This document shows positions 1,614 through 23,611 of a DNA stretch of 23,849 nucleotides, one piece after another. The notes beneath the pieces were generated by a model. It was not told where the DNA came from. It saw only the letters and a program-made list of their open reading frames with translations, and did no database searches. The first letter of the stretch is position 1; every line of letters begins with the position of its first letter. The DNA lies in the IMG/VR virus record IMGVR_UViG_3300046003_006687, positions 1-23,849 of that record; one strand, written 5' to 3'. The stretch is from a virus. The position numbers and the translations under genes were made by a program.

Positions 1614-2602
1614 TGATTGATAATTTAGCCAAAATAGTTTTAGACAATGGGGGTTCAATCGCCCCCCTAATCATACCTGGTCATCTAACTGACGGAACAG
1701 GTTTATGTAATGTTTCTGTTTTTATCGATAAAAATGGCGATATTTTAGCTAATATTCGACACGTGCATTACTCCCTATATCACAGTGAATTTAACCAGAA
1801 ATTCCATTGTACTTGGGGGTGTTTAGCATATTTAAACCCCGAAGATGATATTTCATTAAAAACAGGAAACTATTTATGTAAATTAAATCCTGAAACTCTA
1901 GAAGTAGATTCATTCCAAAAAATTGATACCTCAAATCATGACATCCCTCCAGTTTGGGAATTTCATGGTTTAGAAGATGTTCGTATTTTTAGATGGAATG
2001 ATATCTTTTATGTTTGTGGTGTACGAAGAGACGTAAAACCCGATGGAGAAGGTAGAATGGAATTATGTGAAGTGGATTGGAATGAAAATTCTTGTACTGA
2101 GGTAACTAGAGATAGAATTGAACCTCCTAGTGGTCATACTTATTTAGAAAAAAATTGGATGCCTATTTTAGATATGCCCTATCACTTTGTTAGATGGGCT
2201 GATCCTTTAGAAGTAGTAAAAGTAATACCTGAAACTTTATCAAGTGAAGTTGTTATATCAAAAAATTACAATTTATCTTTACCTCTAGGATTAAGAGGTA
2301 GTTCACAAGTAATACCATTCAATAAAGGTAGAATTTGTATTACCCACGAATGTAATTTCTTCCACCATCCAGGTGAAAAGAAAGATGCTCATTATTATCA
2401 TAGATTTATGATATGGGATGAAGATTGGAACCTTGTACGTTTATCCAAACCCTTTAAATTTATGACTGCTCAAATCGAATTTAATACTGGTTTAGCTATT
2501 AAAGATGATAATTTTATTATAACTTATGGTTATCAAGATAATGCAGCCTATGCTTTAAAAATGCCTATAAATTTATTAGACTCTTTAGAATGGGAAGATT
2601 AA
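1613..2602 (+). CDS. GH130-like five-bladed beta-propeller protein
   Basis: This is a 329-residue soluble protein without signal peptide. Motifs resemble GH130-type mannoside phosphorylases and related glycosidase-like propellers: FHGLEDVRIFRW near residues 117-128, EKNWMP near 179-184, RGSSQVIPF in the fourth blade, and a final IEFNTGLAI...YGYQDNAAYALKM segment. GH130 enzymes cleave or transfer beta-mannosides, and phage and capsule-locus relatives often lie beside glycosyltransferases. Activity is uncertain here because I cannot confirm a catalytic Asp. The start overlaps the oxygenase stop by one base, and the gene overlaps the next by 13 bases, so the three are probably translated together. 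A role in building or remodelling a glycan is inferred. Confidence 0.65.
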   Translation: MIDNLAKIVLDNGGSIAPLIIPGHLTDGTGLCNVSVFIDKNGDILANIRHVHYSLYHSEFNQKFHCTWGCLAYLNPEDDISLKTGNYLCKLNPETLEVDSFQKIDTSNHDIPPVWEFHGLEDVRIFRWNDIFYVCGVRRDVKPDGEGRMELCEVDWNENSCTEVTRDRIEPPSGHTYLEKNWMPILDMPYHFVRWADPLEVVKVIPETLSSEVVISKNYNLSLPLGLRGSSQVIPFNKGRICITHECNFFHHPGEKKDAHYYHRFMIWDEDWNLVRLSKPFKFMTAQIEFNTGLAIKDDNFIITYGYQDNAAYALKMPINLLDSLEWED

Positions 2603-3168
2603 AAGAATATTTACACGCTTATATCCAAAACCCAACTGATCCTTATATTAATGCTTCTTTAGGAGAAGAATATGAAAAAATAGGACAAGGAGCGGCTGCT
2701 TTATCTTATTTTTTAAGAGCAGCTGAGTTAATATATGAAAGTGATCCTGAATTAGCTTATTGTTGTATTTTAAAAACCTGGAAGCAAATAAATAAAACTA
2801 CACGGAGACCTTTTTTTGAAAAAGAACAATTACAAACTGCAATATCATTCCAACCTAAAAGACCAGAAGCATATTTACATTTAAGTATGTGGCATAGTGA
2901 TAGAAAAGAATGGAAAGCATCTTATATGTATGCTTGTTTAGGTTTAGAATTCATAAATAATACTCCATTACCCTATGATGTAGGTTATTCTGGAGATTAT
3001 ATGTTATTATTCCAAAAGGCATTTACTGCTTGGTATATAGGTCAAATAAAAGAATCTGAAGAATTATGGCAACAATTAAGTGGTATGCCTGGTATCCTTC
3101 CTGAACATATGAAGATTATTAAATCAAATTTAGATAATTTTGGTTTACCTTCATTAAATCCTAATTAA
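2590..3168 (+). CDS. TPR-repeat protein linked to a sugar-modification operon
   Basis: The 192 residues are almost entirely helical, with TPR-like pairs: INASLGEEYEKIGQGAAALSYF (about 20-42), the RPEAYLHLSMW block (about 91-101) followed by WKASYMYACLGLEF, and FQKAFTAWYIGQIKESEELW (about 140-159). The RPEAY motif after a helical hairpin resembles the TPR region that follows glycosyltransferase domains in many phage proteins, but no transferase domain is present here. The gene starts 13 bases inside the beta-propeller gene, which argues for translational coupling. It probably acts as a protein-interaction partner of the propeller or oxygenase. The specific role is unknown. Confidence 0.6.
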   Translation: MGRLKEYLHAYIQNPTDPYINASLGEEYEKIGQGAAALSYFLRAAELIYESDPELAYCCILKTWKQINKTTRRPFFEKEQLQTAISFQPKRPEAYLHLSMWHSDRKEWKASYMYACLGLEFINNTPLPYDVGYSGDYMLLFQKAFTAWYIGQIKESEELWQQLSGMPGILPEHMKIIKSNLDNFGLPSLNPN

Positions 3169-3173
3169 AAATT

Positions 3174-3644
3174 ATGGTACACATTACACCCAATGTTATA
3201 GTTGAAGATTTAATAAACGATCCTAACTTTAATATTAATGATTATGAAGGTTATATTTATATGACTTCATTTTTAGATTTAGATAGAAAATATATTGGTA
3301 AAAAGAATTTTTTTCATACTACAAATGTTAAATTAGGTAAAAAAGAATTAGCAAATTTACCCACAACCCGAGGTAGAACTCCAACTAAAAAGAAAGTAGT
3401 TAAAGAATCTGATTGGAAAACATATTATGGTTCAGCTCAAGAAGTAAAAGATCTACTTAAAACCCACCCTAAAGATAGAATAGTTCGTTCAGTACTATTG
3501 CTATGTAAAAATAAAAAAGAATTAACTTATTTTGAGTGTAAATACCTATTTCAATATGGAGTTGTAGAACCTGGAAATAATTATATTAACGACAATATAT
3601 TAGGAAAATTTTATTCTAAAGACTTGTTGGATATTAACAATTAG
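3174..3644 (+). CDS. GIY-YIG family endonuclease
   Basis: This 156-residue protein contains GYIY at 26-29 and YIGKK at 40-44, the two strands that give the GIY-YIG name. WKTYYGS follows at 81-87, and a helix carries the probable metal-binding Glu121 (YFECKYLF). These are the landmarks of single-domain GIY-YIG nucleases common in T4-like phages, which may act in host DNA breakdown, recombination or homing. No DNA-binding NUMOD module follows, so it is not an obvious homing endonuclease. The lysine-rich stretch at 54-76 probably touches DNA. It lies 5 bases after the TPR gene and directly upstream of the primase, with the next candidate promoter inside its last codons. Confidence 0.8.
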   Translation: MVHITPNVIVEDLINDPNFNINDYEGYIYMTSFLDLDRKYIGKKNFFHTTNVKLGKKELANLPTTRGRTPTKKKVVKESDWKTYYGSAQEVKDLLKTHPKDRIVRSVLLLCKNKKELTYFECKYLFQYGVVEPGNNYINDNILGKFYSKDLLDINN

Positions 3645-7411: not shown

Positions 7412-8212
7412 ATGATTAGCTTAATGCAACTATTAAAAGAAGTACAAGGAAACCCAAAAGCAATTATATTAGCTGGAGCCCCTGGAGCGGGTAAGGGATT
7501 TATCTTGAAAGGTTTAGATTTAGGAGGTTTAAAAGTCTTTAATCTAGACAATACTTTTATAGATTTACTAAAACAAGCTAATATATCTTTAGATTTAAAA
7601 TCTCATGGTCCTGAAGATAGAAGTGCTGCTGCTCAAGCAATGGTTCAGGCAACAGCTAAATTAAAAAAAGAAACAATACCTCAAGCTATAGCTAATCAAG
7701 ATTCATTTATATTAGATGGTACAGCTTCATCAGTTAAACAAACTAGTGAGCTAAAATCTGAATTGGAAGATGCTGGTTATGATGTATTTATGCTTTATGT
7801 TTATACTGATTTAGAACGTTCTTTACAACAAAACCAAGATCGATTTGAAAAATCAGGAGGTACTGATAGAAGTTTAGCACCTGGTATTGTATTACGTACA
7901 TGGGCTGATGTAACTAAAAATTATGATGCTTATAAAGAAATGTTTGGTAATAACTTTGTATCTGTAGCTAATACTTTAAATGATGAAAAATTAAAAGATT
8001 TAAAATCAATTACAGATAAATATCTTAAACCATTCGCACCCAAAGATACTAAACCTAAAGATCCTAAAGCACAAGCTCGATCTGAAAAAGCAAAAGAGCA
8101 ATTAAGCCAAGAAGTATCTACATTGCTTCAAGATGAAGCTGTAGCAAATATTATTAACAATTCTGTTTCTAAAGAAGAGGCACAATCCAAAATACAACAA
8201 TTTTTATCTTAA
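7412..8212 (+). CDS. P-loop kinase (zeta-toxin/AAA kinase-like) with putative head-targeting N-terminus
   Basis: This 266-residue protein has a Walker A site GAPGAGKG at 22-29, a following strand with NLDNTF (Asp46), FILDGTASS around 99-106, and a later basic helix with RFEKSGGTDRS. The layout matches zeta-toxin-type and small-molecule kinases, which phosphorylate a nucleotide, sugar-nucleotide or protein using ATP. The substrate is not evident. Residues 1-10 (MISLMQLLKE) are a short amphipathic helix ending in L-K-E, like T4 capsid-targeting peptides cut after L/I-x-E. The C-terminus (about 205-266) is a lysine-rich helical tail. It starts the head-cargo block behind a late-type motif and overlaps the next gene by one base (TAATG). 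Confidence 0.7.
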   Translation: MISLMQLLKEVQGNPKAIILAGAPGAGKGFILKGLDLGGLKVFNLDNTFIDLLKQANISLDLKSHGPEDRSAAAQAMVQATAKLKKETIPQAIANQDSFILDGTASSVKQTSELKSELEDAGYDVFMLYVYTDLERSLQQNQDRFEKSGGTDRSLAPGIVLRTWADVTKNYDAYKEMFGNNFVSVANTLNDEKLKDLKSITDKYLKPFAPKDTKPKDPKAQARSEKAKEQLSQEVSTLLQDEAVANIINNSVSKEEAQSKIQQFLS

Positions 8213-10224
8213 TGAATTCACTAGTACAGGAAATAATTGGAGGTTTACTACCAGAAGCAGAAGACAAAAGAAAAGTAGTGGCTGTATATGGTGGTGGTTT
8301 TAAACCACCTACAGAAGGTCATTTCGAGGTAGTAAAACAAGCATTAGAAGAAAACCCAGAAATTGATGAATTTATAATATTCATTGGTACCAAAGATAGA
8401 GATGGACTTACTAAAGCTGATTCTTTGTTAATTTGGGAGATATTTAACAAATACTTACCTTACAAAGTTAAAATTGATCCAAGTGATAAAGCTCCTATTC
8501 AAGCTATATATAATTACGCTAAAGAACATCCTGAAGAGGAGGTATTATTTGTAATTGGTGCTCGTGAAAATAATGAAGAAGATTTTAAAGATATAGCATT
8601 GCGTACTAAAAGTATGGATAAATACCCAAATCTACAATTACGTACTATTGTAACTAAAACTGCAGCATCAGGTACAGCTGCAAGGAATGCTGCTAAAGTT
8701 TCATTTGAAAAATTTAAACCATTCTTACCATCTGAATTAAATGATGATGAAGCAAAACAAGTATTTGATATAGTAGCTCAAAACATTCAGGAAGAACTTT
8801 TATTAGAAAATGCTTCATATTCTCAACATATAGATCTTAAAAGAGAGATTATTAACTTAACAAAACACATGATAGATAAGGGAATGAATATTCAACCCCT
8901 GCCTAAACTTGTGTTTAAAAATGGTGATAGTGAAAATGCTAAACAATTTCTAGGTAAAACTGCGTATTATGATCCTAATACTCAATCTATTGTATTGTAT
9001 ACTGAAGGAAGACATCCTAAAGATATAGTACGATCATTTTCACATGAAATGGTTCACCACACTCAATTCTTAGAAAATAGATTAGGTAATATTACTACTA
9101 CAAATACACAAGAAGATAGTGATTTAGATAAAATTGAACAAGAAGCTAACCTAGTAGGTACAATGACATTCAGAAATTGGACTGATAGTTTAAATGAAAA
9201 TAAAATCACCCCAGATGATGTCAATCGTATACTAAAACGTACTGGAGATGAACAAGATTTAACTGAACCTACTTGGGATGAATTCACCCCAGAAATGTGT
9301 AATAATGGGTTTTGTGATATCTTTGCTGAAAAATTTAGAGAAGAATATCCCGGAGCTGAAATATGGAATACATATTGGTCTGTAGGAATGACTATGGGGC
9401 ATGTATGGGTTAAATATCAAGGCAAATTTTATGATGCTGAAGCTCCAAATGGGGTTGACGATTGGAGAGAATTACCATACATTCAAAAAGTATTTAAAGC
9501 ACGTGGTAAGTATCCAGATGATGTAGAAAGATTAGCTGAAGCTATAGTTGGAAATAAAATTGTATGTGATAATTGTGGTTGGAGTTGGAATATAAAAGAT
9601 GGAGGAAATGATTTATATACTTGTCACAAATGTGGACACGATAATACCCCATTAAAAGAAAATAAAACAAAAGATCCTTTTGGAATAAATGCATACGCAA
9701 TGGAATTAGGAAGGTTACGAGAAGAAGAAACAGAATATAAAATCTATTTAGATATGGATGGTGTTGTAGCTGATTTCGATAAACGCTTTACAGATCTAGC
9801 AGGAATGGGTCCTAGAGAATTTGAAGAAGAGTATGGTAAAAATGCTTTTTGGGATTTTATAGATGAAGGAGATAATAAACTTGTATTTTGGATTGGAATC
9901 CCACCTATGTCAGATGCAAAACAACTTGTAGATTTTGTATCTAATTATGATTATGAGATGTTAACTGCACCTTCATTAAAGAAACAATCGGTAATGGGTA
10001 AAGGTTTATGGATGAAAAATCAAACTAATAAAGGATTATTTCCCTTTAAACCTAAAGTAAATTATAAAAGTGCTAAAAATAAAAAAGATTTTGCTGCTCC
10101 AAATCATATATTAATAGATGATCGAGAAGATAATATAAATAGTTGGATAGCTGCAGGTGGAATCGGTATATTACATACTAGTGCTTCAAGCACAATCAAT
10201 CAATTAAAAAAATTAGGTTTATGA
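8212..10224 (+). CDS. Five-module enzyme: nucleotidyltransferase, HExxH peptidase, Cys peptidase-like, zinc ribbon, HAD phosphatase
   Basis: One 670-residue frame holds several enzyme types. Residues 22-185 form a cytidylyltransferase/NMNAT-like domain with GGFKPPTEGH at 28-37 and SGTAAR near 153-158. Residues 205-330 contain HEMVH at 278-282 with a candidate third ligand Glu311, a zinc-peptidase pattern. Residues about 340-445 show Cys368 (NGFCDIF), His397 (GHVWV) and Asp408 (FYDAE), a papain/NlpC-like triad. A zinc ribbon uses C452, C455, C471 and C474. Residues 508-670 are a HAD domain with DMDG at 514-517 and LIDDRED near 634-640, like 5'(3')-deoxyribonucleotidases. The N-terminus ends in LLPE15-A, and LLLE199-N separates the first two modules; both fit L/I-x-E prohead cleavage. 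It may be a polyprotein packed in the head. The frame is continuous with no frameshift, and it overlaps both neighbours. Confidence 0.8.
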   Translation: MNSLVQEIIGGLLPEAEDKRKVVAVYGGGFKPPTEGHFEVVKQALEENPEIDEFIIFIGTKDRDGLTKADSLLIWEIFNKYLPYKVKIDPSDKAPIQAIYNYAKEHPEEEVLFVIGARENNEEDFKDIALRTKSMDKYPNLQLRTIVTKTAASGTAARNAAKVSFEKFKPFLPSELNDDEAKQVFDIVAQNIQEELLLENASYSQHIDLKREIINLTKHMIDKGMNIQPLPKLVFKNGDSENAKQFLGKTAYYDPNTQSIVLYTEGRHPKDIVRSFSHEMVHHTQFLENRLGNITTTNTQEDSDLDKIEQEANLVGTMTFRNWTDSLNENKITPDDVNRILKRTGDEQDLTEPTWDEFTPEMCNNGFCDIFAEKFREEYPGAEIWNTYWSVGMTMGHVWVKYQGKFYDAEAPNGVDDWRELPYIQKVFKARGKYPDDVERLAEAIVGNKIVCDNCGWSWNIKDGGNDLYTCHKCGHDNTPLKENKTKDPFGINAYAMELGRLREEETEYKIYLDMDGVVADFDKRFTDLAGMGPREFEEEYGKNAFWDFIDEGDNKLVFWIGIPPMSDAKQLVDFVSNYDYEMLTAPSLKKQSVMGKGLWMKNQTNKGLFPFKPKVNYKSAKNKKDFAAPNHILIDDREDNINSWIAAGGIGILHTSASSTINQLKKLGL

Positions 10225-10829: not shown

Positions 10830-11207
10830 ATGGAAGATAATTTTGACATACACGCTTGGAATTTAAATCGTTATAAAGAAATGATTGTGGAAACAGATGA
10901 CCCAACTATTGGTGCTGAATTAGAAGCAGGTATGGATGGTACTGGAGTAGCTGAAGCTGAAGGTAACGGTAGTTTAGAAAGTTCACTTCATGCTGAATTT
11001 CCACAACTTGATTTTTATGTTAATACTTTTGGAGACAAAGGTGAAGTTACTATACGTCAAAAAAGTGATGTGTCCGAAGAAGATTTTAATGCTTTAACTT
11101 CATTTTTAGAAGATAAAGGATATACTGTTGATTATGAACAATCATATAGAGATTTTGATTATGATGATGACAGATATTGGATGCCTAGAATTAGATTTAA
11201 ACAATAA
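10830..11207 (+). CDS. Small acidic protein, candidate internal head protein
   Basis: This 125-residue, strongly acidic protein starts MEDNFDIHAW, a looser version of the MDNFD start shared with the genes at 11245, 17174, 17416 and 18188. The C-terminal half has a compact alternating pattern (LDFYVNTFGDKGEVTIRQK, EDFNALTSFLEDKGYTVDY) that looks like a small alpha/beta fold. No catalytic motif is visible. It has its own AT-rich upstream motif and sits between a zinc-finger gene and a core-type gene. The head assignment is inferred from the N-terminus, charge and context. The L/I-x-E cleavage site is less clear here (MIVE at about residue 18-21). Confidence 0.5.
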   Translation: MEDNFDIHAWNLNRYKEMIVETDDPTIGAELEAGMDGTGVAEAEGNGSLESSLHAEFPQLDFYVNTFGDKGEVTIRQKSDVSEEDFNALTSFLEDKGYTVDYEQSYRDFDYDDDRYWMPRIRFKQ

Positions 11208-11244: not shown

Positions 11245-11721
11245 ATGGACAATTTCGACTACAAAAACTACCTAAAAAATAACCCATTACTTAATGAATC
11301 CATTTCTGAAGATGCTCGTACAGATGCAGAACAAGAAGGATACAAAGATGGGTTTGACGATGCTAAAGCAGACATCAAACAATCACTTTCTAAAATGAAA
11401 GTTTCAGAATTAAAAGCTAAAATTAAAGAAGATATTCTTTCTGTATTAAGTGAAGCTGATGAAGAAGTTGACGTTAATGTTGACACTCCTGAAGCTGATG
11501 TTAATGTAGATGCTGAGGGTGATAAAATTGACATTGAAGATAAAGGTGTTGATGCTACAGTAAACGTTGGTTTATCTAAAGAAGAAGAAGTAGTTCAAGA
11601 TTCATTACAAGCCGCTATGGAAGCTGCTAACTCATTAGGTAATCAAAAATTAGCTGACCAAATTGGAAATACTATTACTTTCTTTACAAGAGAATATGTA
11701 GTAGGAAGAAACAGCGATTAA
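11245..11721 (+). CDS. Acidic prohead-core-type protein with MDNFD N-terminus
   Basis: The protein has 158 residues. It begins [20 protein letters not shown], with candidate L/I-x-E sites at LNE18 and ISE22. Residues 54-70 ([17 protein letters not shown]) carry the second shared helix motif of this block and end in a third site, LSE70-A. A highly acidic stretch with repeated DVNVD follows (about 75-108), then a C-terminal helical module with [18 protein letters not shown] (131-148) that I recall from phage structural proteins. The pattern of targeting helix, acidic spacer and small module fits a scaffold-core or internal protein. The next gene starts one base after its stop, so both share a transcript. 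Confidence 0.6.
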
Positions 11722-13959: not shown

Positions 13960-14415
13960 ATGACTAAAGCCGAATTAAGAGAAAAAATTAAATCACTTGC
14001 GGTGCAAGTTATGGGTGAAAGATCCAAAGCTGATGATGCCGCTCTGGCTTATGATGAGTTAACTAAATTTCCCCAACTTAAAGAAATTATAGTTAATTTA
14101 ATGACTCATGAATTCAATTACTTTTTAGAGTCAATAGATTGGATTGCTCCCCGCCCTTCAACATTTAGAATAAATTTATTAAATGGTGAAAGTTTTATTC
14201 TTATATTTGGTGATCGTAGTTGGATAGCCCAAGTTGAAGGTAAAAAATATTACCTATTAAATCTTGATGAAGAAGAATTTGCTGCTCAAGCAATTAGTCG
14301 TATATTGCAATATGGACCAGCTAGTGGGGCAGATACAGAAGAAACTTCTGCACCAGCAGAAACACCAGAAGAAGAAGTAGATGTTAACGTAGATGAAGTT
14401 CCAGCTGAAGCATAG
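13960..14415 (+). CDS. Small acidic core-type protein, 151 residues
   Basis: The N-terminal helix MTKAELREKIKSLAVQVMGE resembles the shared K-x-EL-x-x-x-I-K motif seen at 11245, 14422 and 20822. A globular middle (about 25-125) has alternating strands (FRINLLNGESFILIFGDRSWIAQVEGKKYYLL) that suggest a compact beta fold. The C-terminus is a proline-, glutamate- and valine-rich acidic tail ending [15 protein letters not shown], which repeats the EEVDVNVD stretch of the 11245 protein. I do not recognise a named family. Position between the 744-residue mosaic and the next core gene suggests an internal or scaffold protein. Confidence 0.5.
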   Translation: MTKAELREKIKSLAVQVMGERSKADDAALAYDELTKFPQLKEIIVNLMTHEFNYFLESIDWIAPRPSTFRINLLNGESFILIFGDRSWIAQVEGKKYYLLNLDEEEFAAQAISRILQYGPASGADTEETSAPAETPEEEVDVNVDEVPAEA

Positions 14416-16929: not shown

Positions 16930-17208
16930 ATGAAACCTTACACTGATTCCACAAACATCAGAACATTTTCAAAAGATGTTGACCCAATGGAATTAGTCTG
17001 GCATCAAGATAACGGAGATAGATTAATTGAGGTATTAGAAGGTGAAGGGTGGATGTTTCAACGTGATGATGAATTACCAAAACCAATAAATAAAGGAGAT
17101 TATATATTTATACCGGATCAACAGATTCATAGAATACATAAAGGAAATACTGATTTAAAAATTAAAATAAACAATGGACAATTTCGATTTGAAAAAATAC
17201 TTAGCTGA
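16930..17208 (+). CDS. Small single-domain cupin
   Basis: This 92-residue protein has a cupin core: ELVWHQDNGDRLIEVLEGEGW (about 22-42), then KGDYIFIPDQQIHRIHKGN (about 55-74). Likely metal ligands are His25 and His67, with Glu35 or Glu38 as candidates, fewer than in fully active cupins. Such mini-cupins occur in T4-like phage core regions. The function may be structural, metal-binding or sugar-related, and the substrate is unknown. Its last 35 bases overlap the start of the next gene in another frame. The same DNA therefore encodes the cupin end (NNGQFRFEKILS) and the MDNFDLKKYLAE tag of the 17174 protein. Confidence 0.7.
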   Translation: MKPYTDSTNIRTFSKDVDPMELVWHQDNGDRLIEVLEGEGWMFQRDDELPKPINKGDYIFIPDQQIHRIHKGNTDLKIKINNGQFRFEKILS

Positions 17209-17416
17209 AGGTAAATTAAGCGAAGAAAATTACGAAGAAGATTATGATACTGGAGGATATGTAGAAGCAATGAGTCCCGATCTTTTTGATCATGTTAATG
17301 AAATAGTTAGAATATTTCAAGAATGGGAAAGAGGACCAATGACTGAACCCGGAATGATAGGATATGCTAAAGATGATTTAGTAGATTATATAACAGGTAA
17401 AATTAGAAACGCATAA
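17174..17416 (+). CDS. Small internal head protein with MDNFDLKKYLAEGKL tag
   Basis: This 80-residue protein begins MDNFDLKKYLAEGKL. The first 12 residues form an amphipathic helix ending in L10-A-E12 before Gly, which matches the L/I-x-E rule of T4 gp21 protease and resembles the T4 internal-protein leader MKTYQEFIAE. After an acidic linker comes a helical module (VNEIVRIFQEWERGPMTEPG, then YAKDDLVDYITGKI) that I have seen in other phage core proteins. The gene starts 35 bases inside the cupin gene and its stop overlaps the ATG of the next gene (TAATG), so three genes are coupled. The tag argues for packaging in the head. Confidence 0.6.
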   Translation: MDNFDLKKYLAEGKLSEENYEEDYDTGGYVEAMSPDLFDHVNEIVRIFQEWERGPMTEPGMIGYAKDDLVDYITGKIRNA

Positions 17417-18174
17417 TGGATAATTTCGATTTAAGAAAATATTTAGCTGAAGGGAAATTATTAAATGAAGAAGTAAAATCTTTTTCATTTGATTCTTTTG
17501 ATGTTGGTTTATTAGCTGATGGTTTAGAATGCCTTATTGAATACCGAGAAGGAATAGAATCTGATGAATATATTAGTGATGTTAAATATTTACTAAGAAA
17601 ATTAGCAGGTAGAGTAAATGAAACTATAGTTCAAGAAGGTGATGAAGATGGAGGAGCTGAAGAAGCAGCATTTGATGCTGAATTTCAAAGTGCAGCTAAT
17701 CAAATAGCAGCTACTATAGGTAAAGAATTAAAAGATAAAAAAGCAGAAAATCCTGAAGCATTAAATGAAGCAATAGTAACTTCTACTATAGCTGCTATTT
17801 TAACAGGTAATGCGGTTTTAGGATTTATTTCAAAAATGGCTGCTAAATTAATGAAAAAATTAAATTGGAAAAAAGGTGAAGATTTTGCTGAAAAAATTCA
17901 TCACTGGGCTCATGATAATGAAATTGCCTTCCAAGCACCAATTAGACGTGTTTTAGCATTCTTTATTAAAGATAAAGCTAAATTAGATATGACTGTTAAA
18001 GCTATTTATGCAATTGTAGTTGGTAGTATGGCTGCGGGTTATGGAGTAAGTGCTGTATCAAGTTTAGAAAAAGCAGATTGGTTTAACTCATCTTTATCAG
18101 CATTAAAAACATTAGCTAAATCAGATGAAGCAATAGCTAACGCATTCCCAGCAATAAAATCATTAATGGTATAA
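17416..18174 (+). CDS. Tagged internal head protein with two hydrophobic segments
   Basis: The protein has 252 residues and opens with the tag MDNFDLRKYLAEGKLLNEE, nearly identical to that of the 18188 protein. Compared with 18188 over the first 19 codons there are four silent changes and one that alters the residue (N/K), so selection keeps the peptide. Residues 20-115 are acidic and helical. Residues 119-139 (IVTSTIAAILTGNAVLGFIS) and 196-214 (AIYAIVVGSMAAGYGVSAV) are hydrophobic and glycine/alanine-rich, of a length able to cross a membrane, and separated by a charged region. A packaged protein with membrane-active parts could help DNA pass the host envelope after ejection. That role is inference; the hydrophobic parts might instead pack a soluble bundle. 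Confidence 0.55.
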   Translation: MDNFDLRKYLAEGKLLNEEVKSFSFDSFDVGLLADGLECLIEYREGIESDEYISDVKYLLRKLAGRVNETIVQEGDEDGGAEEAAFDAEFQSAANQIAATIGKELKDKKAENPEALNEAIVTSTIAAILTGNAVLGFISKMAAKLMKKLNWKKGEDFAEKIHHWAHDNEIAFQAPIRRVLAFFIKDKAKLDMTVKAIYAIVVGSMAAGYGVSAVSSLEKADWFNSSLSALKTLAKSDEAIANAFPAIKSLMV

Positions 18175-18187
18175 TAATATAAATAAA

Positions 18188-18502
18188 ATGGATAACTTTG
18201 ATTTAAGAAAATATCTAGCTGAAGGCAAATTATTAAAAGAAGAAATAAACTCAGAACTTGAGGATTATATTAATGATCTATTTAACCAATCAATTGAAGA
18301 AGAAGAAGGACAACAAGAAGGTATTTGGGAAAAAGAAGAATATGCTTCTGATGATTACGAAGATGCAGAAGTATTTTTAGAATTAGTAGATTATTTAAAA
18401 TCTACAGGTGGTAAATATACTTTAGAAGGTAATCCTGATATTAATTTAGAATTATTATCTAACGGAGACATTAAATGGGACGCTTTTGTAACATTTGATT
18501 AA
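18188..18502 (+). CDS. Small acidic tagged internal head protein
   Basis: This 104-residue protein begins MDNFDLRKYLAEGKLLKEE, the third clear copy of the tag, with the likely cleavage after LAE12. The remainder is strongly acidic (SIEEEEGQQEG, EKEEYASDDYEDAE) with a short C-terminal alpha/beta segment (GKYTLEGNPDINLELLSNGDIKWDAF). No enzyme motif is seen. A T4-late-like TATAAATA box at 18178-18185 lies just before the ATG, too close to leave a leader, so it may be part of the A-rich ribosome entry region instead. It closes the head-cargo block: the following 121 bases hold hairpins and a promoter. Confidence 0.6.
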   Translation: MDNFDLRKYLAEGKLLKEEINSELEDYINDLFNQSIEEEEGQQEGIWEKEEYASDDYEDAEVFLELVDYLKSTGGKYTLEGNPDINLELLSNGDIKWDAFVTFD

Positions 18503-20821: not shown

Positions 20822-21361
20822 ATGAAAAAATCAGAATTAAAATCGTTTATCAAAGAAGAAATATTGTCTTCCCTTAAAGAAGGTGTTTGGTCAGTAATGC
20901 CAGAACGTATCCCAGAATTTATTGCAGCTATAGAAGAAATTAAAGAAGAATTTCATGCCGTTGTAGGTAGTGATGATGTGTATGATGGTTTAGATCGTGC
21001 CGTTCAGGCAGCTAGAGATTTAATGGCAATGAGAAATGAAGCTACAATTGAAACTGCACCTGAAAATTTAGCAAAAGTAAAATCTGTTGCTAAACCTGAT
21101 GATACTATTAGAGTAACTGAAGCAGAAGATGAAGACGAATTTGATGCTCCTGATAAAGAACCATCTAAAGCAGAATTGAAAAAAACTAAAGGTTTAGCTA
21201 AAGCAAAAGATGAATTAGCTCTTTTAGTTAAAGATATGAAATCATTAGCTCGTAAATATAAAGAAGCTGAAGGTGCTGCTAAAGAAAAAATTGTTGCTGA
21301 TTTAAAGAAAAAAACAGCATTAAAAAAAGAATTAGAATCTATTGTAAATAAAGCATTGTAA
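20822..21361 (+). CDS. Prohead-core-type protein with KKSELKxxIKEE leader
   Basis: The 179-residue protein starts MKKSELKSFIKEEILSSLKEG, a basic-acidic amphipathic helix ending in L-K-E20 before Gly, again an L/I-x-E site. Nearly the same helix is found inside the 14422 protein (from residue 140) and in the 11245 protein (54-70). Residues 24-70 form a helical module (PERIPEFIAAIEEIKEEFHAVVGSDDVYDGLDRA). A long acidic linker follows (98-115), and then a lysine-rich coiled coil to the end. Such charge-rich helical proteins make the inner scaffold of T4-type proheads (gp22, gp67, gp68); no homology can be claimed. It lies one base before the membrane gene 21363. Confidence 0.55.
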   Translation: MKKSELKSFIKEEILSSLKEGVWSVMPERIPEFIAAIEEIKEEFHAVVGSDDVYDGLDRAVQAARDLMAMRNEATIETAPENLAKVKSVAKPDDTIRVTEAEDEDEFDAPDKEPSKAELKKTKGLAKAKDELALLVKDMKSLARKYKEAEGAAKEKIVADLKKKTALKKELESIVNKAL

Positions 21362-22039: not shown

Positions 22040-23611
22040 ATGTCAGATTTAAAACAGGTAATACGCCAAGAATATTTAAGATGTGCCCAAGACCCAGTAC
22101 ATTTTATGCGTAAGTACTGTTATATACAGCATCCACAACGTGGACGTATACAATTTAATTTATACCCATTCCAAGAAAAAGTATTAACACTATTTCGCGA
22201 TAATGACTATACTACTGTATTAAAATCAAGACAGTTAGGTATATCGACTTTAGCCGCTGGTTATGCTCTATGGTTAATGATTTTTCATAAAGATCGAAAC
22301 GTATTAGCATTAGCAACTACACAAGCAACTGCCCGTAACTTAGTTACTAAGGTTCAGTTTATGTGGGAAAATTTACCCTCCTGGCTTAAAGTAGATGCTG
22401 TAGAGAATAATAAATTATCTCTTAGGTTAGTTAATGGTTCAAAAATACAAGCAAAATCATCTAATGCCGATGCTGCAAGATCAGAAGCCGTATCTTTACT
22501 AATAGTCGATGAGGCAGCTTTTATTGAAAATATTGCTGAGACATGGGCTTCAGCACAGCAAACCTTAGCAACTGGGGGTGGAGCGATTGTATTATCTACT
22601 CCTTATGGTACAGGTAACTGGTTTCACCAAACTTGGGTTAAAGCAGAATCAGGTGAAAATGACTTTTTACCTATTAAATTACCTTGGTATGTTCATCCTG
22701 AACGTGATCAAATTTGGAGAGATAGACAAAATGAACTTTTAGGTGATCCTAGATTAGCAGCTCAAGAATGTGATTGTGATTTTAGCACCTCTGGAGATAT
22801 TGTATTCTATAATGAATACTTAGAATTATATGAAAAATCTCATATAAAAGATCCTTTAGAACGTAGAGGAGCAGATCAAAATTTATGGGTTTGGGAATCA
22901 GCAGATTACTCAAGAGATTATATGGTTGTAGCTGACGTTGCTCGTGGAGATGGAAAAGATTATTCTTCATTCCATGTTATAGAGGTTGAAAATAATGTTC
23001 AAGTTGCTGAATATAAGGGACAAATTGGTACTAAAGAATTTGGTCACTTATTAGTTGGTATCGCTACTGAATATAATAATGCAATGCTTGTAATAGAAAA
23101 TGCTAACATTGGTTGGGCAACTATACAAGTAGCAATAGATAGACAATACTCTAACCTTTACTATTCACAACGGAGTGACTCCTCAAATGTAGATTCGTAT
23201 TTTGATAAATATCAAGACCATTCACGTATGGTAGCTGGATTTACAATGTCATCTAAAACACGACCTATGGTAATAGGTAAGTTTCAAGAATATATTGCTG
23301 ATCAAGGAGTAACAATTCAATCAAAAAGATTGATAGAAGAAATGAAAGTATTCATTTGGAAAAATGGTAGAGCAGAAGCACAAACAGGATATAATGATGA
23401 TTTAGTTATGGCTTTTGGTATAGCAATGTACATTAGAGATACAGCATTAAAATTCCGTCAAAGAGGAATTGATATGACAAAACAAGCATTACAAAACACA
23501 ATAGTAAACAGAACCGCTTATGGTGGAGCTTATGGAACCGGAGCTAATGCTCAAAATCCATACGCTATGAAAGCAGGTAACAGTCAAGAAGACATTAGAT
23601 GGTTACTATAA
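22040..23611 (+). CDS. Terminase large subunit, gp17-like
   Basis: The 523-residue protein shows both domains of the packaging motor. The ATPase part has a Walker A variant SRQLGIST at 63-70, LLIVDEAAF with Asp157-Glu158 as Walker B, and STPYGTGNW (186-194) as the coupling motif. The nuclease part has Asp299 in VVADVARGD, Glu353 in LVIENAN, and Asp453/454 in YNDDLVMA, the three acidic metal ligands of the RNase H-like fold. It cuts concatemeric DNA and drives it into the prohead through the portal. It is somewhat shorter than T4 gp17 (610 residues). The portal gene follows directly, with no tail tube or sheath genes between as in T4. Confidence 0.95.
   Translation: MSDLKQVIRQEYLRCAQDPVHFMRKYCYIQHPQRGRIQFNLYPFQEKVLTLFRDNDYTTVLKSRQLGISTLAAGYALWLMIFHKDRNVLALATTQATARNLVTKVQFMWENLPSWLKVDAVENNKLSLRLVNGSKIQAKSSNADAARSEAVSLLIVDEAAFIENIAETWASAQQTLATGGGAIVLSTPYGTGNWFHQTWVKAESGENDFLPIKLPWYVHPERDQIWRDRQNELLGDPRLAAQECDCDFSTSGDIVFYNEYLELYEKSHIKDPLERRGADQNLWVWESADYSRDYMVVADVARGDGKDYSSFHVIEVENNVQVAEYKGQIGTKEFGHLLVGIATEYNNAMLVIENANIGWATIQVAIDRQYSNLYYSQRSDSSNVDSYFDKYQDHSRMVAGFTMSSKTRPMVIGKFQEYIADQGVTIQSKRLIEEMKVFIWKNGRAEAQTGYNDDLVMAFGIAMYIRDTALKFRQRGIDMTKQALQNTIVNRTAYGGAYGTGANAQNPYAMKAGNSQEDIRWLL

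Follow-up and report, generated by a model that had tools for sequence, protein, structure and literature searches.

The N-terminal peptide MDNFDL[KR]KYLAEGKLxE, found at the start of three neighbouring genes in viral DNA of 23,849 nucleotides (IMG/VR record IMGVR_UViG_3300046003_006687; this whole stretch is called the window here), is very probably a capsid-targeting sequence of immuto-related phages of the T4 superfamily, by which proteins would dock into the prohead core, be cut by the S77 protease and be released in the head. What is new is a predicted lineage-specific capsid-targeting class with interchangeable leaders and with fusion proteins punctuated by L-x-E sites, one of which contains a complete internal tag.

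Tagged genes and related leaders in the window

Among isolates, Flavobacterium phage vB_FspM_immuto (160 kb; hereafter immuto) is closest to this DNA. The window is the counterpart of the primase-to-terminase block of immuto and stops before the head genes; because the contig ends after the terminase gene, the window's own protease is not seen. The genes at 17174, 17416 and 18188 (Table 1) have the common N-terminus MDNFDL[K/R]KYLAEGKL, the tag being MDNFDLKKYLAEGKL at 17174 and MDNFDLRKYLAEGKL at both 17416 and 18188. Reading of the gene starts thus bears out the near-identity claimed in a preliminary description of this DNA. Its count of four silent and one residue-changing difference in the first 19 codons of 17416 and 18188 was also reproduced: codons 3, 4, 10 and 13 differ silently, and codon 17 is AAT in the former and AAA in the latter (N/K). 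The 3' end of a cupin-like gene (16930-17208) overlaps the tag of 17174 in a different frame (17174-17208), so that one stretch of DNA encodes both NNGQFRFEKILS-stop and MDNFDLKKYLAE.

In immuto, the homologue of the 17174 body bears the leader MENNFDIHKW and is encoded immediately after the prohead protease gene. The 17416 body has in immuto the MKKSEL-type leader MKKSELVKLIKEEL, and in other loci it also sits behind other fused domains. An AlphaFold2 model of the 17416 protein, built from 13 sequences, is all-helical with a pLDDT of 52 and too poor for a fold search. Pfam and PHROGs searches with the window proteins and the tagged bodies returned little except DUF5872 and unnamed families.

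The genes at 11245 and 10830 had been described as carrying weaker versions of the tag. The relationship is real, but these are distinct leader classes of their own. The 11245 class (F-D-Y/F-[KR]..) also heads other bodies at four loci (L008, L040, L063 and L114), and the KDQW body has an 11245-type leader instead of the main tag in L040, L063 and L114. The 10830 class, NFDIHxW, recurs in L155 and at immuto 125241, the gene that directly follows the protease gene. One L155 protein (1892-3454) starts with tandem NFDIHxW and NDFDLREWN leaders. Beside the three tagged genes, the zeta-toxin-like kinase (7412) and the nucleotidyltransferase/nucleotidase fusion (8212) are, judged from their sequences, likely head cargo, and the kinase is a candidate injected effector.

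Table 1. Leader-bearing genes and the terminase gene of the window
Feature	Position	Strand	Length (aa)	Description
Zeta-toxin/AAA kinase domain	7412..8212	+		Directly behind short leader MISLMQLLKE; candidate head cargo
Multi-domain fusion	8212..10224	+		Leader MNSLVQEIIGGLLPE; nucleotidyltransferase-like, YunG-like and nucleotidase-like domains
Related leader class	10830..11207	+		Start MEDNFDIHAWN..
Related leader class	11245..11721	+		18-residue leader, then acidic body
MTKAEL-leader gene	13960..14415	+		Homologous to C-terminal domain of immuto 114006 (sequence comparison)
Tagged gene 1	17174..17416	+	80	MDNFDLKKYLAE / GKLSE / GGYVEAMSPD body
Tagged gene 2	17416..18174	+	252	MDNFDLRKYLAE / GKLLNE / short segment and VNETIVQE / helical FDAEF body
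Tagged gene 3	18188..18502	+	104	MDNFDLRKYLAE / GKLLKE
MKKSEL-type leader	20822..21361	+		MKKSELKSFIKE / EILSSLKE / G
Terminase large subunit	22040..23611	+		T4-like context marker; 64% identical to immuto terminase

Distribution of the tag

Searching IMG/VR with the degenerate pattern NFDL[KR]K[FY]LxE[GN]KL yielded at least 120 stretches against a rough chance expectation far below one, which excludes chance; the tag-bearing loci are related and are not independent samples. The survey of tag-bearing genes proposed in the preliminary description shows that unrelated proteins follow the tag: the 140 distinct tagged genes among the IMG/VR loci read fall into 81 unrelated body clusters, nearly all outside known families. 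There are two tag subclasses, YLAEGKL-x-E and FLVENKLTxNS[KR]xLxE. In 131 of the 140 genes, another LxE comes immediately behind the tag (background 18%). Isolate phage records with the tag or the window bodies are limited to the immuto group, and only 2 of 84,980 species genomes of bacteria and archaea have the tag, in each case on a MAG contig that carries the same block of phage genes. The literature searched contained neither the tag peptide nor any virion proteomics of immuto.

Exchange of leaders

Homologous bodies swap the tag for other leaders that likewise end in L/I-x-E. On HiPIP-like bodies, these are MKLSKLISE, MIKLLEILSE, MRKLTNILLE, MSFNYKKYIQDNPLLKE and MKSFFKFIKE, all with [LIV]xE endings. 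The last one is found in G022, a contig of another phage lineage with its own replication genes, where seven consecutive genes start with MLSFTSYLAE/A, MKSFKSYIKE/A, (MQ)KSFKSFTQYITE/A, MADFFKFRRELEE/A, MKSFFKFIKE/Q (the HiPIP-like gene), MKSFSQLREE/V and MKTFAQYIVE/E. Thus, near-canonical T4-type leaders (MKSFFKFIKE and MKTFAQYIVE) occur on the HiPIP-like body and its neighbours; the T4 affinity of G022 is taken from its gene content, since searches of this 27-kb fragment revealed neither gp23 nor an S77 gene. In the T4 leader, targeting depends on positions 4 and 7 and processing on positions 8 and 10; the gp21 cut falls behind L/I-X-E (PMC9026906). Between the tag and MKTYQEFIAE/A of T4, only F4 and Y9-L10-A11-E12 (Y-L-A-E) correspond. 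A HiPIP-like homologue of a common tagged cargo family, annotated as 'high potential iron-sulfur protein', is also encoded by the Actinomycetia phage DSL-LC01 (L269, 63051-63785), where the adjoining genes have the annotations capsid maturation protease and major capsid protein.

L-x-E junctions and fusion proteins

We mapped the first post-tag residue of tagged bodies onto untagged homologues and scored [LIVMF]xE within 3 residues. This motif, which is that of the T4 gp21 protease, lies at the junction in 49 of 58 untagged homologues and in 15 of 17 families (background 16%), compared with 0-20% at control positions shifted by 10-30 residues. For fusions alone, the counts are 25 of 31 homologues and 12 of 15 families. 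Only E is strongly enriched at the junction position, while D, K, N, R, A and G are at or below background. For example, LLKE/FVGKELEDRNEPLYD of a tagged gene is matched by VVTE, VLKE, LINE or IIKE where this domain begins within larger proteins. After the cut site, T4 gp21 prefers A, G or S. The common subclass FLVE/N has an Asn right after its first site, outside this preference, which speaks against the capsid-targeting reading, and the gp23 maturation sites of these phages vary likewise after the cut (A, V, S or Q).

The L156:2528-3784 fusion begins with the tag and contains another complete copy internally, Met included (MEKQFDLKKFLVENKLTSNSRSLNE/S), and its counterpart in immuto is two separate tagged genes. 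The nucleotidase-like domain of 8212..10224 is a separate leader-bearing gene in immuto, and in immuto 114006 the MKKSEL-type leader lies internally. A quite possible, if still tentative, reading is that such fusions are packaged precursor polyproteins, in which several cargo domains share one leader (sometimes with internal tags) and the prohead protease would cut at the L-x-E borders to give separate effectors in the head; with the same cut site at every border, a domain could pass from a tagged gene of its own to a fusion and back. A nucleotidyltransferase-DUF5824 fusion (L263:192-1655) has the T4-type leader SFTQYITE/A at its start and an internal T4-leader-like VKTFSEFITE/N inside the DUF5824 match. 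The terminase gene at L156:3870-6623 is interrupted by an apparent intein with a nuclease-like ORF (CDCLWGDTIV...SHNCDF).

Genomic context

Among the tag or body records of at least 100 kb, 12 of 13 have an S77 prohead protease (PF03420). Most of the S77-bearing records of this size also have gp23, and a single one of those tested yielded none. In these phages, gp23 starts with a propeptide like that of T4, which ends in a maturation-like I/L-V/I-x-E site. The immuto genome carries gp20 and gp23 together with a scaffold-like gene and the gene of a gp21-type prohead protease. Early L-x-E leaders are found in 71 of 143 genes of the primase-to-MCP block and in 104 of 763 genes elsewhere. This enrichment is significant in each of four genomes separately, with p-values that are indicative because the leader pattern was chosen after the data had been seen and the related genomes are not independent. 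The tags themselves cluster in the gp17-gp23 block.

The preliminary description had pointed out that a tag on clearly non-virion proteins would speak against a head function. Among the genes recognised by homology to immuto, none for replication, nucleotide metabolism or tail has the tag. Outside the head block, the tag occurs on two genes of unassigned function, one next to ssb (immuto 1803-2318) and the other close to GroEL (G004 140091), so that the exclusion of non-virion proteins is not absolute.

Proposed capsid targeting and its alternatives

The likening of the tag to the T4 leader, as a head tag, is supported, though unproven, by tag sharing, leader swaps, the constraint on the peptide, the L-x-E junctions, the gp23 and S77 genes of the phages and the T4-type leaders on orthologues. 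We infer docking, cleavage, packaging and ejection of the tagged proteins from these comparisons as follows. The N-terminal N-F-D-L..Y part would dock the protein into the prohead scaffold core, and the gp21-like S77 protease would then cut behind the L-x-E motifs YLAE and KLxE. This would free the body inside the head, from which it would probably be ejected together with the DNA. The MDNFDL.., MKKSEL.., 11245-type, NFDIHxW and short MxLxxLLxE leader classes may be interchangeable entries to this one route. Since some genes have fused, a single targeted precursor would yield several cargo proteins through cleavage at its internal L-x-E sites. If capsid targeting is true, dozens of uncharacterised genes from abundant aquatic T4-like phages become predicted head cargo, likely injected at infection; the leader and the L-x-E border provide a searchable rule for further cargo, and Bacteroidota phages gain a new short packaging tag.

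The repeated start might instead be DNA homology, with a recombination hot spot or recent duplication shuffling cargo genes and the peptide functionless. The copies are indeed arranged head to tail, in a gene cluster that is variable, and the F and A codon choice of the pattern-selected tags is somewhat unlike that of the bodies. The search pattern fixes part of the tag, and conservation was re-measured on a set fetched by the HiPIP-like body alone, in which 49 of 63 distinct genes have the tag. In 48 of these orthologues, the tag has a dS of 0.617 and a dN of 0.131 (dN/dS about 0.21), and the body a dS of 0.622 and a dN of 0.073. The equal dS indicates no extra constraint on the tag DNA, and the low dN of the tag agrees with the earlier proposal that the peptide rather than the DNA is being kept. 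Moreover, tag copies inside one genome differ mostly silently, and the alternative leaders have the L-x-E protein motif in common but not their DNA. The DNA-repeat explanation is very improbable and was set aside, being largely refuted by the equal silent divergence of tag and body.

Two other alternatives accept a functional peptide. The leader might be cut by the prohead protease without any targeting role, as an inhibitory or spacer propeptide, while the body draws the cargo into the core. The junction evidence bears on cleavage and not on docking, and the same body is served by several quite different leaders, both of which fit this possibility. However, over 80 unrelated bodies would then all have to bind the core through surfaces of their own, and F-D-L, which precedes the cleavage site, shows a level of conservation similar to that of the site; we regard this alternative as improbable. 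That the tag directs proteins to the host membrane, to another virion part or to degradation is extremely improbable, given the concentration of tags in the gp17-gp23 block, the exchange of the tag with T4-type capsid-targeting leaders and the position of the DSL-LC01 homologue beside annotated capsid maturation protease genes. We know of no motif for targeting to any of these destinations.

Comparison with known systems

The proposed capsid-targeting tag resembles that of T4 (IPI-IPIII and Alt; processed by gp21) in being a short N-terminal leader (10-19 residues) common to unrelated proteins, with an aromatic residue at position 4 and an aromatic-L/I-x-E end. The phages also encode a gp21-type protease and gp23, here read from genomes, and orthologous cargo of another lineage bears MKSFFKFIKE-type leaders. 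Unlike the T4 leader, the tag has another sequence, is longer and contains two successive L-x-E sites. It also differs from T4 in its at least 81 body families, its several interchangeable classes and its internal copies in fusions, with packaging being a prediction here.

In the giant phages SPN3US and phiKZ, a prohead protease likewise removes N-terminal propeptides from ejected head proteins, and gp53 and gp54 are diverged proteins with identical N-termini, which recalls tag sharing (PMC5694885). In contrast to the short L-x-E tag, giant-phage propeptides mostly exceed 100 residues, and SPN3US has A-x-E as its motif (PMC10052503). Polyvalent proteins of phages and conjugative elements, which have several domains, are believed to be packaged and then injected (PMC5512222). 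For some of these, autoproteolysis by a peptidase in cis has been proposed, whereas here the motif of the prohead protease lies at the domain borders. The products of 8212-10224 and L263:192-1655, which may be packaged, combine a nucleotidyltransferase-like domain with other domains in one polypeptide.
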